Source of the DNA: Porticoccaceae bacterium
GTDB taxonomy: Bacteria; Pseudomonadota; Gammaproteobacteria; Pseudomonadales; Porticoccaceae
NCBI GenBank assembly: GCA_028822155.1
Contig: JAPKEJ010000015.1
Span: forward strand, 1 to 43,316
Length of the DNA stretch: 43,316 nucleotides
Reading direction: 5' to 3'
Shown: positions 2,307 to 37,295 of the stretch, piece by piece
How the letters are laid out: every line of letters begins with the position of its first letter
Numbering within the stretch: position 1 is the stretch's first letter
Notes under the pieces: generated by a model
The model's input: the letters and a program-made list of their open reading frames with translations, nothing else
What the model was told of the DNA's origin: nothing
The model's database searches: none
Position numbers and translations under genes: made by a program

Positions 2307-3512
2307 TTAGGTTCGATACTCGGCATTAATGCGCACATATTCCTGCGTAAGATCGCTAGTCCAGACGGTTTCATTATGGTCGCCACGGCTTAAGCTAACG
2401 CGTATTTCAATGTCCTCAGACTGCATAGCTTCCTGCCCTGCCTCTTCGCTATATGTTTCAGCGCGACTACCATGCTCGGCGATCAAAACGTCATTTAGAA
2501 AAATTTGCACAAGGTTAACATCCAGGTCAGGTATATCAGATCGGCCAACCGCGGCTAAAATACGACCCCAATTAGGGTCCGAAGCCGACAGCGCCGTCTT
2601 GACCAGAGGAGATTCGGCGATGGTATAAGCAACACTCAAGGCTTCAGCTTTACTTAATGCCTGCTCAACCACTACCGAGACAAATTTACTGGCACCTTCA
2701 CCATCGCGAATAATTGCCTGAGCTAGATCAGTAAAGACTTGGCTAAGTTGATCGACAAAGGTGTCAAAAGAGACTTCGTCAATAGCCACACCATTAGCGC
2801 CTGTGGCAACAAGCACCACCGAATCGTTAGTAGATGTATCACTGTCCACCGTGATTCTATTAAATGATGCTTCAGTAGCGATCGTTAGGGCTCGATGCAA
2901 CAACTCATTATCGACGAAGGCATCGGTGGCCACATAGGCTAGCATGGTCGCCATATTTGGCTTGATCATACCAGAGCCCTTAGATATTCCGGTGATGGTC
3001 ACCAGATCGTCATCTCCATATTGCCGGCTGCTACCTTTGGGACGCGTATCTGTCGTTAAAATACCCTGTGCTGCCTCTTCCCAGCCTTGTTCAGACAAGT
3101 TTTCAACGGCTTGGGGTATTCCTGCGATAAGTTTGTCCATAGGCAGGTACTCACCGATCACGCCGGTAGAGAATGGCAAGACGGCATTGATATCCACACC
3201 CCGTGATGTCGCCAACGCGCTGCAGCTATGGGTAGCATCTAATAAGCCTTGCTCTCCAGTGCCCGCATTGGCATTGCCGGTATTAATCAGCATATAGCGA
3301 GGCGAACATCGCACTAGATGCTCTTTGCATACAATCACTGGCGCGGCACAAAATGCATTTTTGGTGAACAGCGCAGCAACTGAACTGCCTTCGGCTATTT
3401 CCATAATCACCAAGTCGCTGCGGCCTGGGGTCTTTATCCCGGCACTGGTGGTACCTAGTTTGAATCCAGTGACTGGATACATGATCGGAAATAGCGCGTC
3501 GCCAGTAGCCAT
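2307..3512 (-). CDS. argJ: Bifunctional glutamate N-acetyltransferase / ornithine acetyltransferase
   Basis: ArgJ transfers the acetyl group from N-acetylornithine to glutamate, closing the acetylated arginine cycle; some forms also use acetyl-CoA. The 401-residue precursor belongs to the N-terminal nucleophile family and cleaves itself. The KPNMATML motif places the scissile bond at Ala188-Thr189, with Thr189 as nucleophile of the beta chain. The GANGVAIDE, SDPNWGRILAA and C-terminal EYRT segments match the family. It lies 12 bases downstream of secA and is probably cotranscribed. Whether it has the glutamate acetyltransferase activity as well cannot be read from sequence alone. Confidence 0.96.
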   Translation of the reverse strand: MATGDALFPIMYPVTGFKLGTTSAGIKTPGRSDLVIMEIAEGSSVAALFTKNAFCAAPVIVCKEHLVRCSPRYMLINTGNANAGTGEQGLLDATHSCSALATSRGVDINAVLPFSTGVIGEYLPMDKLIAGIPQAVENLSEQGWEEAAQGILTTDTRPKGSSRQYGDDDLVTITGISKGSGMIKPNMATMLAYVATDAFVDNELLHRALTIATEASFNRITVDSDTSTNDSVVLVATGANGVAIDEVSFDTFVDQLSQVFTDLAQAIIRDGEGASKFVSVVVEQALSKAEALSVAYTIAESPLVKTALSASDPNWGRILAAVGRSDIPDLDVNLVQIFLNDVLIAEHGSRAETYSEEAGQEAMQSEDIEIRVSLSRGDHNETVWTSDLTQEYVRINAEYRT

Positions 3513-25690: not shown

Positions 25691-25707
25691 TCTTAAACAT
25701 ACTAAAT

Positions 25708-26089
<382 letters not shown>

Positions 26090-26096
26090 GGGGCGA

Positions 26097-26123
26097 AGAA
26101 TAGCACAATCTCAGCCTTTCCAA
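26097..26123 (-). promoter_or_regulatory. Probable rnpB promoter
   Basis: TATTCT (complement of 26097-26102) lies seven bases before the predicted rnpB 5' end. TTGGAA (26118-26123) lies 15 bases further upstream. Both are four-of-six matches to sigma-70 boxes with a slightly short spacer. Placement relative to helix P1 makes this the likely promoter. Confidence 0.55.
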
Positions 26124-26138
26124 GTGATTTAAATCACT
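26123..26138. promoter_or_regulatory. Perfect 16-bp palindrome resembling a CRP/FNR-family site
   Basis: AGTGATTTAAATCACT is a perfect palindrome. It fits the CRP/Vfr form (TGTGA-N6-TCACA) at four of five bases per half and the FNR/Anr form (TTGAT-N4-ATCAA) at four of five per half. It abuts the -35 of rnpB and is centred about 41.5 bases from the predicted RNA 5' end, the classic activator position. No regulator gene is in the window. Confidence 0.45.
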
Positions 26139-26176
26139 ATGGAAGTACTAAAATAATGTAACTTTTTGTACCGAGG

Positions 26177-32923: not shown

Positions 32924-35431
32924 ATGAAAATAAACAATATTTGGAAAATTAACTCGATTGCAGCAGCAATCATTGCTGGTGGCATTGCGTTACCAACAGT
33001 GGCAACTGCCGCCCAAGCGACGCTAGAAGAGGTCGTTGTAGTAGGTTCTCGCGGAGCACCTCGCTCTGTAGGAGATTCACCGGTACCTGTTGACGTGATC
33101 AACGCTGAAGAACTTGGCAAAGCAGGCAGCAATGACCTTCTTATGCAACTTCAAAGTGCAGTACCTTCATTAAATGTTCACTTACAGCCTATCAGTGATG
33201 CGGCAAGTATGATTCGTCCCGCTAACCTGCGTGGTCTGTCATCTGACAGCACCCTGGTTATGGTTAACGGCAAGCGTCGTCACCGTGCATCAGTTATCGC
33301 CTTCCAAGGCGGTGGTGTTAATGACGGTTCACAGGGTCCAGATATTTCTGTGATTCCAAGTATCGCGCTTAAGAGAGTTGAAATTTTGCGTGATGGTGCT
33401 GCGGCACAGTATGGTTCTGACGCAGTTGCTGGCGTAATCAACTTTGTCTTAGATGATTCATCTGAAGGCGGAAGTTTGACTATTAAGCAGGGTGAGTACA
33501 GCAAAGGTGATGGCGCAACAACAGTTATAGCCGGTAAAATTGGCATGTCACTAACTGATGCTGGCTTTATGAACCTTAGCTTCCAGATGAAAGATAATGA
33601 TGCGACTTCGCGCAGCCTTCAGCGTCCAGATGCTCAGGCTCTTATCGACGCAGGTAACACCTCTGTTACTCTTCCAGCTCAAATCTGGGGTGCTCCTGAG
33701 ATTGATGATGATGTAACTTTCTTCTTTAACTCTGGTTTAGACCTTGGTAATGGCGCAAAAGCCTACGCTTTCGGTAACTACTCTGAGCGCGATATCGATG
33801 GCGGTTTTTACTTCCGTAATCCTGATGGTCGTGGCGGCGTATTCACCAAAGGTGATGGTACTCGTCTGATTGCTGACGTTACAGGCGATATGTCTGGTAA
33901 CTGCCCAACTGCTCTTGCTCCATCTGATTATGCCGGACGAGATGCTGTTATCGCAGATCCAAATTGCTACATTCTCAACCAAGCGGCTCCTGGTGGCTAT
34001 ACGCCTCGCTTTACAGGCAACATCACTGACTCATCTTTCACTATGGGAAGAAGCGGAGAGATTGCTGCAGGACCAATGGCCGGCACTGCGTATGACGTTA
34101 GTGGTTCGGTTGGTCGTAACGAAGCTTCATTTGGTTTAAACAACACCTTTAACCCATCTATGGGTCCTGACTCTCCACGTAACTTTGAAACTGGTAGCTA
34201 CATCCAGTTAGCAAAAACCTTCAATTTAGATATGTCGAAGGAATACGGTTCTATGAGCGTTGGTTACGGTGCTGAATGGCGCGAAACTACTTTCTCTGTA
34301 ATCTCAGGTGAAGAGTCATCTTGGAAAGCTGGTAAGTATGCGACTCAAGGTTTCAACGTAGGTTCTCACGGTTTTGCAGGTTTCTCACCTGACTCAGCTG
34401 GTGCGTTCTCTCGTCGTAACTACGCAATGTATGTTGACGTTTCAAACCAAGTATCTGACAACTTATTAGTTCAGGGTGCGGTTCGTTACGAAGACTACAC
34501 AAGCTTCGGCGACACTACTAACTACAAGCTAGCGTTCAACCTTCAGTTGACTGATAACGTTGCACTGCGTGGATCTCACAGTACTGGTTTCCGAGCTCCA
34601 ACTCAGGGCCAGGCTAACGTAGTTAACACTCAGACTACTCTTGTAGACGGTCAGTTGACTCAAGCTCAAACGCTACCTGGCTTTAAGTTGGGCGCAGGCG
34701 ATCTGCAACCAGAAGAGTCTACAAGTTTTGCAATGGGTATCGTTGCTACACTTGGTGAAGTTGAGTTAACGGCTGACTGGTTCAACATTGAAGTAGAAGA
34801 CCGTATTGCTCTAACAAGTAATGCTGCACCTACTGCTGCTCAGCGAGCTGCTATGGGCGCTGCCGGTGTTCCTAACCCAGAGTTGATTGGTGAAGTAAAC
34901 TACTTTACTAATGACTTTAACACTGAAACTTCAGGATTAGATATCGTAGCAACTTACGGCACTAACCTTTTCGGCGGATCAACTGACTTTAGCGCAGCGT
35001 ATAACTACACTGACACTGAAGTTTCTGATCAGGGTAATGTGACGAGTGATAGCAAGGTGAAGCGTCTAGAAGAAGGACTGCCAAATCATCGTGCAACTTT
35101 CACTATGAATCAGCAATGGGAAGACATCAGTGCATTTGTTCGTACTAACTACTTCGGTGAGTACTATGCAGTACACGCTGACTGGTTTGGTACTGACGCT
35201 GACGCAGCTGTTACAGTTGACGTAGAAGTGACTTACAACCTCACTGAAAACTTCAACGTTTCTCTTGGTGCTCAAAACATCTTTGATCAAAAAGCAGAGC
35301 GTATCGAAGGCTCATCTGGCGCAGTAGGTGAAGGCGTACCAGGTAACGTACTTGGTGCAATCTACTACGAGACTTCGCCAATGGGTATTGAAGGTGCTTT
35401 CTGGTATATGAGTGCAGGATACAACTTCTAA
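32924..35431 (+). CDS. TonB-dependent outer-membrane receptor
   Basis: This 835-residue protein imports an unidentified substrate across the outer membrane using TonB energy. It has a signal peptide (cleavage near AAQA, about residue 32) and a TonB-box-like stretch LEEVVVVGSR. The plug domain (about 45-155) includes RGLSSDSTLVMVNGKRR and VEILRDGAAAQYGSDAVAGVINFVL. A beta-barrel follows, ending in the aromatic C-terminus WYMSAGYNF. Codons are dominated by GGT, CGT, GCT, GTT and ACT, unlike the flanking genes, which points to high expression. It is monocistronic, closed by a strong terminator. I cannot name the ligand; neighbouring metal genes are suggestive only. Confidence 0.93.
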   Translation: MKINNIWKINSIAAAIIAGGIALPTVATAAQATLEEVVVVGSRGAPRSVGDSPVPVDVINAEELGKAGSNDLLMQLQSAVPSLNVHLQPISDAASMIRPANLRGLSSDSTLVMVNGKRRHRASVIAFQGGGVNDGSQGPDISVIPSIALKRVEILRDGAAAQYGSDAVAGVINFVLDDSSEGGSLTIKQGEYSKGDGATTVIAGKIGMSLTDAGFMNLSFQMKDNDATSRSLQRPDAQALIDAGNTSVTLPAQIWGAPEIDDDVTFFFNSGLDLGNGAKAYAFGNYSERDIDGGFYFRNPDGRGGVFTKGDGTRLIADVTGDMSGNCPTALAPSDYAGRDAVIADPNCYILNQAAPGGYTPRFTGNITDSSFTMGRSGEIAAGPMAGTAYDVSGSVGRNEASFGLNNTFNPSMGPDSPRNFETGSYIQLAKTFNLDMSKEYGSMSVGYGAEWRETTFSVISGEESSWKAGKYATQGFNVGSHGFAGFSPDSAGAFSRRNYAMYVDVSNQVSDNLLVQGAVRYEDYTSFGDTTNYKLAFNLQLTDNVALRGSHSTGFRAPTQGQANVVNTQTTLVDGQLTQAQTLPGFKLGAGDLQPEESTSFAMGIVATLGEVELTADWFNIEVEDRIALTSNAAPTAAQRAAMGAAGVPNPELIGEVNYFTNDFNTETSGLDIVATYGTNLFGGSTDFSAAYNYTDTEVSDQGNVTSDSKVKRLEEGLPNHRATFTMNQQWEDISAFVRTNYFGEYYAVHADWFGTDADAAVTVDVEVTYNLTENFNVSLGAQNIFDQKAERIEGSSGAVGEGVPGNVLGAIYYETSPMGIEGAFWYMSAGYNF

Positions 35432-35493: not shown

Positions 35494-35523
35494 AAAAGGG
35501 ATGCCGTCTGGCATCCCTTTTTC
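35494..35523 (+). terminator. Rho-independent terminator of the TonB-dependent receptor
   Basis: A perfect 12-bp stem (AAAAGGGATGCC / GGCATCCCTTTT) with a GTCT loop is followed by T residues. It separates the receptor transcript from the metal operon. Confidence 0.93.
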
Positions 35524-35598: not shown

Positions 35599-35615
35599 AT
35601 ACCCTGCAGGGGTAT
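35599..35615 (+). promoter_or_regulatory. CsoR-type operator at the start of the metal operon
   Basis: ATACCCTGCAGGGGTAT closely matches, from memory, the TACCC-N4-5-GGGGTA pseudo-palindromes bound by CsoR upstream of copZA in Gram-positive bacteria. The final AT is the start of the first gene's ATG. A TAATAT string at 35587-35592 is a possible -10, which would put the operator over the transcription start. A CsoR-family gene closes the operon, so autoregulation is expected. Confidence 0.75.
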
Positions 35616-36213
35616 GAAGAGCTTAATTTTTGCCATAATAATGCTAGCCGCATTACAAACTCAAGCGCGACCCATCTCATATGTAGGTGGTCATACTCTT
35701 ATGTTCAATACAGGCGAGCAGTCAGATAATATCTATTGGCACTACACGCCTAACATAAACTACTCCATAGGCCTCGATTACCAGCAAGACAAAGTAAGCA
35801 ACGAGTATTTTCCCTCAGCCCGGTTTACCTACCTGGTGAATCGAAAGAACACAGCAACATCTCAACGCAATCTATATATCAAAACAGGATTGGGCTTAAC
35901 CAATAGTGATAATCATTTTTACGCCCTGACTGGTGACTGGGAGACAAGACGACTATTTTCGGGCTTCTCCGCCAAACAGATCTCCGGTGTCGGCTATGAT
36001 CTATTTGAGCACTCAGTAAAGATTGGTGTCGCGCCTTATCTTGGCGATTACGGCGATCTTCATACTTGGCTCATGATTGAGACAAAAAAAGATGATCTCG
36101 ATAACAAGCGAACAACTTACCCAGTATTAAGATTATTTAAAAGCGGCGCACTGATTGAAGTGGCCTATCATAAGTCCACCGATTGGACCGTCCATCTAAT
36201 GTATCGCTTTTAA
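35614..36213 (+). CDS. Small secreted/outer-membrane protein of unknown function in the metal operon
   Basis: I do not recognise this 199-residue family. It has a clear signal peptide (MKSLIFAIIMLAALQTQA, cleavage before RPIS). After it come alternating polar/aromatic stretches such as YWHYTPNINYSIGLDY and a terminal WTVHLMYRF. Such an aromatic C-terminus and strand pattern suggest a small beta-barrel of roughly eight strands. There is no cysteine in the mature part and no metal motif. Its ATG is only one base past GGGG and sits in the operator, so the leader must be very short. It is first in the operon, 26 bases before the heavy-metal protein, so a role in metal passage or sensing at the outer membrane is possible but inferred. 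Confidence 0.75.
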   Translation: MKSLIFAIIMLAALQTQARPISYVGGHTLMFNTGEQSDNIYWHYTPNINYSIGLDYQQDKVSNEYFPSARFTYLVNRKNTATSQRNLYIKTGLGLTNSDNHFYALTGDWETRRLFSGFSAKQISGVGYDLFEHSVKIGVAPYLGDYGDLHTWLMIETKKDDLDNKRTTYPVLRLFKSGALIEVAYHKSTDWTVHLMYRF

Positions 36214-36239
36214 ACCCCATTAAACTAAGAGAGAAAATT

Positions 36240-36650
36240 ATGAAAAAAATACTAATCGCAACAAGCTTTCTTCTGGCGACAACAGTCGCTCAGGCTGGCC
36301 ATCACGAGATGGACGATATGCACTCACATGAAGGGCATCTGCATGAAACGATGATTGATGGCAAAGAGATCGTAGTAGACCCGCAGCGCTTCGATATATT
36401 TGTCACTGGCCTAGATAATAGTCAGATTGCTTTAGTTAGTGTCCAAGGAATGGTCTGTGACTTTTGTGCGCGCGGAATAGAGAAGACTTTTGGCAAAGAC
36501 AAATCAGTGAGCAAAATCGATGTTGATCTAGCCTCTGGCAAAGTACTTTTGGCCTATCCCGCGGGCGTTAAGATTGATCTAGCCGAGATCAAGAAAAAAA
36601 TTCTCAATAACGGTCTTAACGCGACTGATATTCAGATTATGGGGATTTAG
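36240..36650 (+). CDS. Secreted His-rich heavy-metal-associated (HMA/MerP-like) protein
   Basis: This probable periplasmic metal-binding protein has 136 residues. The ATG at 36240 is preceded by AGAGAG and gives a clean signal peptide (MKKILIATSFLLATTVAQA, cleavage before GHHE). The mature N-terminus carries six histidines (21, 22, 28, 30, 33, 35) and methionines in a short stretch. An HMA-like fold follows with the M-x-C-x-x-C site at Met71, Cys73 and Cys76 (GMVCDFCARGIEKTF). The aromatic residue between the cysteines is unusual compared with MerP or CopZ. A MerT-like gene begins two bases after its stop, suggesting it hands metal to that membrane protein or takes it from it. Copper(I), zinc or mercury are all conceivable; the operator favours copper. 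Confidence 0.85.
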   Translation: MKKILIATSFLLATTVAQAGHHEMDDMHSHEGHLHETMIDGKEIVVDPQRFDIFVTGLDNSQIALVSVQGMVCDFCARGIEKTFGKDKSVSKIDVDLASGKVLLAYPAGVKIDLAEIKKKILNNGLNATDIQIMGI

Positions 36651-36651
36651 A

Positions 36652-37017
36652 GTGGAGGACAAGACTAGTAATTATTTCTCGTTATTTGCCTCTACATCCA
36701 CGTTGATTTGCTGTGCGTTACCTGCAGTATTTGTAACCTTAGGTGCCGGAGCAACTTTTGCCAGTTTAGTAAGCGCCGCCCCCTTTTTGGTCACCCTGTC
36801 GCAGTACAAAATATCAATTAGTCTTTTTGCCTTAGTGATGATTGTCGTCGCGGGAATTATCAACTATCGCACCGCTAGACTACCTTGCCCCTTAGACCCT
36901 GAACTTGGCAAGACTTGCATGCAAACTCGCCGACGATCACAAAGGCTCTACTTTATATCAACGGGTATTTTTGTATTTGCCAGCTTTTTCACCTACGTTG
37001 TCCCACTGATAATATAG
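36652..37017 (+). CDS. MerT-like inner-membrane metal transport protein
   Basis: This 121-residue protein has three predicted helices and MerT-like architecture. A vicinal cysteine pair in the first helix (Cys20-Cys21, in LICCALPAVFVTLGAG) is followed by a second helix. A cytoplasmic loop carries two more cysteines (Cys79 and Cys89, spacing nine), and a last helix ends YVVPLII, reminiscent of the MerT end YVMPFFY. The start is GTG with GGGGA seven bases upstream. In mercury operons MerT takes Hg(II) from periplasmic MerP. Here the partner is the upstream HMA protein, but there is no merA or merR, so the metal and direction are uncertain. Confidence 0.75.
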   Translation: MEDKTSNYFSLFASTSTLICCALPAVFVTLGAGATFASLVSAAPFLVTLSQYKISISLFALVMIVVAGIINYRTARLPCPLDPELGKTCMQTRRRSQRLYFISTGIFVFASFFTYVVPLII

Positions 37018-37031
37018 TCCAAGGACCTATT

Positions 37032-37295
37032 ATGAAGTCATCTTGTCACAAGCCACTTATTCCTAATTTGAACCGCATTAGCGGCCAAATTAAAGGCGTC
37101 GCCAGGATGGTCGATGAAGGTCAATATTGTATCGACATACTTGACCAATTAAGGGCCGCGAAGTCAGCCATAACCACGGTGGAGAACAAAATTCTCGAGA
37201 AGCACATTCAAGAATGTGTCACGGTTTCGCTTCAATCTCAAGAGAATATTGATACCAAGATTCAGGAACTAATGCGAGTACTCAAGCGTAAATAA
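37032..37295 (+). CDS. csoR: CsoR/RcnR-family metal-sensing repressor (CsoR-type ligands)
   Basis: This 87-residue all-helical DNA-binding repressor (DUF156 family) probably dissociates from DNA when metal binds. The ATG at 37032 has AAGGA seven bases upstream. Longer frames from 36915 overlap the previous gene and are not supported. The copper(I) ligand triad of CsoR is present in register: Cys33, His58 and Cys62, equivalent to Cys36/His61/Cys65 of the Mycobacterium tuberculosis protein. RcnR and FrmR differ at the last position. An extra Cys5-His6 pair near the N-terminus could be an additional ligand. It ends the operon whose first gene carries a CsoR-like operator. Confidence 0.88.
   Translation: MKSSCHKPLIPNLNRISGQIKGVARMVDEGQYCIDILDQLRAAKSAITTVENKILEKHIQECVTVSLQSQENIDTKIQELMRVLKRK

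Follow-up and report, generated by a model that had tools for sequence, protein, structure and literature searches.

We propose that a compact four-gene operon in the genome of a Porticoccaceae bacterium is a CsoR-repressed copper(I)-stress operon whose products build a relay across the cell envelope that works without a P-type ATPase and in the direction of export. We give this reading about an even chance (roughly 0.5); the metal, the direction and transport itself are what we infer from the sequence. The operon lies in a window of 43,316 nucleotides, the whole stretch of DNA analyzed, from contig JAPKEJ010000015.1 of a 2.44 Mb assembly (108 contigs, about 89% complete). Its features, as read from the ORF list of the window and from the analyses described below, are the following.

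35494..35521, + strand: terminator-like hairpin with a 12-pair stem between a TonB receptor gene and the operon; a boundary, not a member
35600..35614, + strand: CsoR-type operator palindrome, TAC-N9-GTA (rule as given in the available part of PMC3902906), whose final base is the A of the gene 1 ATG
35614-37295, + strand: operon of four genes
35614..36213, + strand: gene 1, predicted outer-membrane beta-barrel, 199 aa (model, alignment)
36240..36650, + strand: gene 2, predicted secreted His-rich HMA protein with GMVCDFC, 136 aa (profile match)
36652..37017, + strand: gene 3, MerT-like membrane protein, GTG start, 121 aa, with C20, C21, C79 and C89 (sub-cut-off profile match, alignment)
37032..37295, + strand: gene 4, CsoR repressor, 87 aa (profile match)

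The four ORFs lie on one strand with intergenic gaps of 26, 1 and 14 nt, confirming the tightly packed genes described at this place by the first-pass annotation, and none of them encodes a P-type ATPase, MerR or mercuric reductase, as had also been claimed. The hairpin is the one terminator-like site observed in the region against a mean of 1.5 in shuffles, a count not above chance. The TonB receptor gene beyond it (32924-35431), for which NCBIfam gives siderophore, heme and B12 receptors, each below cut-off, was rejected as a member of the operon, since among the compared loci the window has it in common with L006-L008 only and the hairpin sets it apart. Nor was a candidate for a fifth gene common across lineages found; genes for DUF4396 (L018), PepSY_TM (L010) and PAP2 (3' of CsoR in L013-L015, the family having been scanned in L014) are local. 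Elsewhere in the window, the RNase P RNA, class A, lies at 25707-26090 on the minus strand (RF00010, 325 bits); an ORF on the opposite strand (25739-26161) is probably not a gene.

Relatives were sought by a pattern-based contig scan with the MerT-like protein, which reaches close relatives only and gave 17 loci. Sixteen of them hold the four genes with their order unchanged, including one in which gene 1 is cut by the contig end (L009) and one in which some 680 nt with a DUF4396 gene (2408-2878) separate the MerT-like gene from that of CsoR (L018); the remaining locus, L022, holds the MerT-like and HMA genes only. The first-pass annotation had staked the operon on its co-occurrence in related genomes, and by this count the neighborhood is conserved. 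Record titles of the 17 loci, from gamma- and alphaproteobacteria, include Porticoccaceae and HTCC2207, which are the nearest named and would fit a SAR92-like gammaproteobacterium as host of the window, along with SAR86, the PS1 clade, IMCC14465, Thiotrichaceae, Rhodobiaceae and Phyllobacteriaceae. The window has flanking genes in common with L006-L008, and other small sets of loci have theirs, but none is common across lineages; recurrence with different flanks argues that the gene set is more than chance. The divergences of the four proteins correlate across 17 genomes (r 0.77-0.89, Mantel 0.001), which relatedness alone could yield. TonB receptors adjoining three of the loci (L019 2-1894, L020 926-2914 and L021 732-2705, all on the minus strand) are directed away from the operon and have as best match a ZnuD-type receptor, far below cut-off; L021 also encodes a small His/Cys-rich protein (2738-3040) with no family match.

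A larger set of 55 loci, duplicates included, was read with four profiles and drew on the best-scoring loci (the best 10 of 15 in the family of G301 and the best 20 of 31 in the organism's own family). The order barrel-HMA-MerT-CsoR was found in 48 of these; among the other seven, L005 (G041) has CsoR first, L072 and L096 have no CsoR in the stretch, and L081, L087, L089 and L101 are shorter, with fewer genes. Of 369 genomes drawn across the class, 48 gave a match to the MerT-like profile. Thirty of these were read at one locus each, giving 7 with the full operon, 1 (L072, G245) with genes 1-3 and no CsoR, and 22 with the MerT-like and HMA genes but no gene 1; the full operon is thus present in at least 7 genomes of the draw, 18 matching genomes lying outside the reading.

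The product of gene 4 belongs to the CsoR family (PF02583, 90.0 bits; cut-off 22.8), its nearest solved relatives, 4ADZ (E 3.8e-25) and 4M1P (1.2e-22), both being copper CsoRs. All 18 sequences aligned keep Y32, C33, H58, C62 and E79, of which C33, H58 and C62 make up the Cys-His-Cys metal site of the family. The earlier call of a CsoR-type repressor carrying this triad is thereby upheld, as is that of a secreted His-rich CxxC protein for gene 2, which belongs to the HMA family (PF00403, 29.6 bits; cut-off 24.8), keeps C73 and C76 in every one of 18 sequences and, in the window, carries six His ahead of GMVCDFC. The corresponding arm holds 2-8 His in 17 of 18 HMA proteins and 1 His in the remaining one. 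Signal peptides of the operon's proteins were judged by eye, not by a tool. Gene 2 falls outside the MerP family (TIGR02052, 15.1 bits against a cut-off of 92.55).

Gene 3 had been described as a MerT-like three-helix protein. MerT has three helices, a Cys pair in helix 1 and two Cys in the second loop; among the gene 3 proteins, all 19 members share C20, C21, C79 and C89. The MerT profile does not claim the protein (PF02411, 19.3 bits against a cut-off of 32.9; E ≤ 0.01 in 11 of 19 members, best 6.8e-6), and the three helices come from a structure model of poor confidence (pLDDT 65). Since loop 2, with boundaries drawn by hand, holds 5-7 Lys/Arg in every member, it was placed in the cytoplasm. 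A search of the PDB gave no convincing relative. Mobile spread of the operon was considered and rejected: gene 1 has no match among plasmid sequences, and the MerT-like protein matched 6 plasmid records at 32-36% identity and no phage. One of these records, a Vibrio plasmid (L112 4763-6407), has its match to the MerT-like protein in a gene annotated as "heavy metal-associated", directly after a GDCCVxC (seleno)protein gene.

Gene 1 had been called an unrecognized signal-peptide protein, with which our searches agree: no family exceeds cut-off in Pfam or NCBIfam for the window's protein, 17 members gave only stray weak Pfam matches, the PDB yielded no relative by sequence, and the N-terminus resembles a signal peptide. 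A single-query search recovered it in only 2 of 145 genomes of an order-wide draw. The structure model has 12 strands (mean pLDDT 85.5) and the C-terminal residue is Phe; the protein looks like an outer-membrane barrel. Met30, His194 and Met196 are invariant in the alignment and His43 and His150 are present in 16 of 17, and strand alternation counted from F199 would turn His194, Met196 and Arg198 toward the barrel interior. Kinship with the PF13557 barrels was rejected by profile-profile comparison (hhalign probability 0.5, E 0.13).

These proteins might serve to buffer copper in the periplasm, the His arm of the HMA protein trapping the metal while the MerT-like protein and the barrel aid reduction, loading or permeability, with no net transport. 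The His arm itself fits such a role, as does the DsbD-type gene found close to some of the wider MerT-HMA loci (PF02683 in the one scanned, L060). We nonetheless judge buffering unlikely, for two membrane proteins are conserved alongside the HMA protein in 16 of 17 loci, the cytoplasmic Cys pair of the MerT-like protein is invariant and the sensor is cytosolic.

The regulatory region points to control by the operon's own repressor type. The palindrome TACCCTGCAGGGGTA at 35600-35614 is the sole TACCC-N5-GGGTA in the window, with 0 found in 100 shuffles, and the exact sequence TACCCTNNNGGGGTA has a single occurrence in the 2.44 Mb assembly (~89% complete). According to the available part of PMC3902906, type-2 CsoR operators follow TAC-X9-GTA with G/C tracts, a rule that the palindrome satisfies; it also resembles the Bradyrhizobium CsoR box TATACCC-N5-GGGTATA given in the available part of PMC5057107. 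Removal of 2 sources without the anchor motif (L009, L072) and 8 duplicates from the 55 gene-1 sources left 45 distinct upstream regions, 43 of which have the palindrome. The exceptions are L102, where it is masked, and L005, where the CsoR gene comes first and is preceded by a related palindrome. The start codon lies inside the palindrome in 42 of the 43, at offset 8 (30 ATG and, in L010, 1 GTG) or offset 14 (11 ATG), and just outside it in L096.

A TTGACA-like hexamer (≥5/6) ends 28-31 nt 5' of the start codon in 26 of these 42, 18 of them perfect, where chance would give 0.018 per sequence on uniform bases and with kinship of the sequences ignored; with such spacing, transcription would be expected to begin at the start codon. 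In the window itself the −35 is poor, matching at 3 of 6 positions, and a simple promoter scan reported no site at the window operator. The arrangement suggests that the gene 1 message is leaderless, arising from an operator that covers the start codon. A leaderless csoR mRNA has already been shown in Bradyrhizobium (PMC5057107), and 5'-RACE has shown one for nreAXY of Mesorhizobium under a repressor of the CsoR/RcnR family (PMC12724321), as far as the available parts of these papers go, so this design would be a variation on a known theme. In one genome (G402) a TonB receptor gene (L109 3607-5844) lies immediately 5' of gene 1 on the same strand, and gene 1 keeps its own operator (L069).

The direction of the proposed relay was approached through the pumps of the carrier genomes. 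P-type ATPases (PF00122) were found in 2 of 18 carriers (G146, G153) as opposed to 14 of 14 controls, a contrast that, like those below, ignores phylogeny and assembly gaps. The G146 ATPase adjoins FixG-type and oxidase subunit I genes and is probably an assembly factor of the CcoI/FixI type; that of G153 has the CPC motif, and its neighbors include genes for an HME-type RND protein and a phage integrase. This grouping (L107 6306-15747; G153 is IMCC14465 by locus L014) looks like an acquired metal island. In 16 of 18 carriers PF00403 has a single match, and in the window's genome that match is gene 2.

A similar contrast holds in the organism's own family (n = 112), where gene 1 is present in 31 genomes, a Cu-ATPase above cut-off (TIGR01511) in 46, and both only in G577 and G582: 2 of 31 carriers versus 44 of 81 non-carriers (p 1.2e-6). 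The difference is seen in the other genera of the family (0 of 14 versus 37 of 48, p 1.5e-7), that within the own genus not being significant (2 of 17 versus 7 of 33, p 0.34), and 37 of the 81 non-carriers are also without a Cu-ATPase above cut-off. The G577 stretch is identical to that of G146, some genomes standing under two handles (G146 = G577; G160 = G413, with identical match places), and the G582 ATPase adjoins genes that resemble oxidase assembly genes by sequence; this sorting was applied to these two carriers only. A post hoc cut at 500 bits leaves 0 of 31 carriers and 24 of 81 non-carriers. In the class draw the Cu-ATPase exceeds cut-off in 0 of 7 full-operon genomes and 288 of 362 others (288 of 369 overall). 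The family of G301, with gene 1 in 14 of 25 genomes, has no Cu-ATPase above cut-off in any of the 25, so that 11 of 11 non-carriers are without it too, and G245 possesses both the barrel-HMA-MerT trio, with no CsoR beside it, and a Cu-ATPase.

Removal of cytosolic copper is favored because a repressor of the Cu(I)-derepressed type is joined to genomes of which 16 of 18 have no P-type ATPase match, and on the sequence evidence export is more likely than import. The first-pass annotation had spoken of an uptake pair, and MerT is known as an importer. According to a review, MerT and MerP import mercury in mer operons, and by kinship the barrel, HMA and MerT-like proteins might bring in copper under regulation as MerP and MerT do mercury. 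Such a repressor, however, would start import at a time of plentiful copper in the cytosol, the 16 carriers would have no P-type ATPase to move the copper on, and one relative of the trio sits in a copper-defense cluster (G245, below); we regard regulated import as unlikely. RND matches occur in all 24 carriers examined, exceeding cut-off for the HME type in 2 (G153, G154) as against 3 of 14 controls. An HME-type RND pump was rejected as a hidden partner on the count above cut-off, yet the weaker matches in all 24 make copper export by RND pumps possible.

That copper is the metal is supported by independent evidence. In G245 (L072/L106), genes for an outer-membrane efflux protein (PF02321), a multicopper oxidase (PF07732), CusF (PF11604), a gene 1 relative, an HMA protein and a MerT-like protein follow one another on one strand, the last five overlapping by 1-4 nt and no CsoR gene lying beside them. 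This oxidase-CusF cluster ties the barrel-HMA-MerT trio to copper and, with the operator and the CsoR triad, supports the copper-type envelope relay under CsoR suggested at first pass. An operon answering another metal (Zn, Cd, Ni, Hg or Ag) or other thiol stress is the least probable of the readings weighed here: MerT kinship does recall mercury, and in Bradyrhizobium a CsoR whose box is similar responds to Zn and Cd as well (PMC5057107, available part), but the Cys-His-Cys triad and the CusF and multicopper oxidase of G245 speak for copper. Mercury resistance as the main reading was rejected, there being no MerR in the operon and no MerA above cut-off in 24 carriers (related reductases give weaker matches in each of the 24; 1 of 14 controls exceeds the cut-off). 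The trio may be part of a wider theme. Among 24 further gammaproteobacterial loci (L051-L074), 21 have, close to the MerT-HMA pair, an ORF that belongs to one other cluster. Of the 6 such ORFs scanned, 4 match PF13557, a family of barrels, and those of L052 and L064 match nothing.

Among known systems, the copZA and csoR-cueA efflux operons share with this one the CsoR triad, a type-2 operator and an HMA protein, and Bradyrhizobium csoR (PMC5057107, available part) shares the leaderless mRNA. The present operon falls outside the CsoR-CopA efflux operons: it has no P-type ATPase, where they encode a transporter it has a MerT-like protein and a barrel, its HMA protein is a secreted one, and its operator covers the first gene's start codon. 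With mer MerT/MerP it has in common a small membrane protein with two Cys pairs beside a signal-peptide HMA protein, differing in profile scores below the PF02411 and TIGR02052 cut-offs, the missing MerR and MerA, and the added barrel and CsoR. The nickel operon nreAXY (PMC12724321, available part) likewise places its promoter at the start codon under a CsoR/RcnR-family repressor, but its operator lies between −35 and −10, whereas here it reaches the start codon, and its cargo genes are others. The G245 cluster (L106) has counterparts of genes 1, 2 and 3, likewise ordered, and differs by having no CsoR beside them and by adding the oxidase, CusF and efflux protein. A literature search of titles and abstract openings gave, among the matches listed, no arrangement of CsoR, MerT-like, HMA and barrel genes; novelty is provisional, since most subscription journals lie outside its coverage. 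Metal transport in SAR11 and Roseobacter is treated in the available part of PMC4771312.

The data presented above have led us to propose a model for the CsoR-controlled export relay. Without copper, CsoR would sit on the operator over the promoter region and the gene 1 start codon, keeping the operon off. Rising cytosolic Cu(I) would occupy the Cys-His-Cys site and free the promoter, giving a probably leaderless message. Cys79 and Cys89 of the MerT-like protein, on the cytoplasmic side, would then take Cu(I) and, by way of Cys20-Cys21 in helix 1, hand it on to the HMA protein in the periplasm, from which the barrel would release copper across the outer membrane. The conserved cysteines of the MerT-like loop and helix 1, the CxxC of the HMA protein and the His and Met residues of gene 1 would thus mark a path from the cytosol to the outside, and the relay would stand in for the CopA-type pump missing from most carriers tested. 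The weakest point is the energy source, none being evident; as a guess, copper might pass from ligand to ligand in order of rising binding strength.

A broader claim, that three small proteins form a whole-envelope Cu(I) exporter that uses neither ATP nor an RND pump and is the main copper defense where marine bacteria have lost P-type ATPases, is offered tentatively, with the odds somewhat against it. If a conserved copper-type operon does serve genomes without such pumps, it would explain how these marine bacteria handle copper, assign a role to a barrel family not described so far and show MerT-like proteins to be active outside mercury transport.
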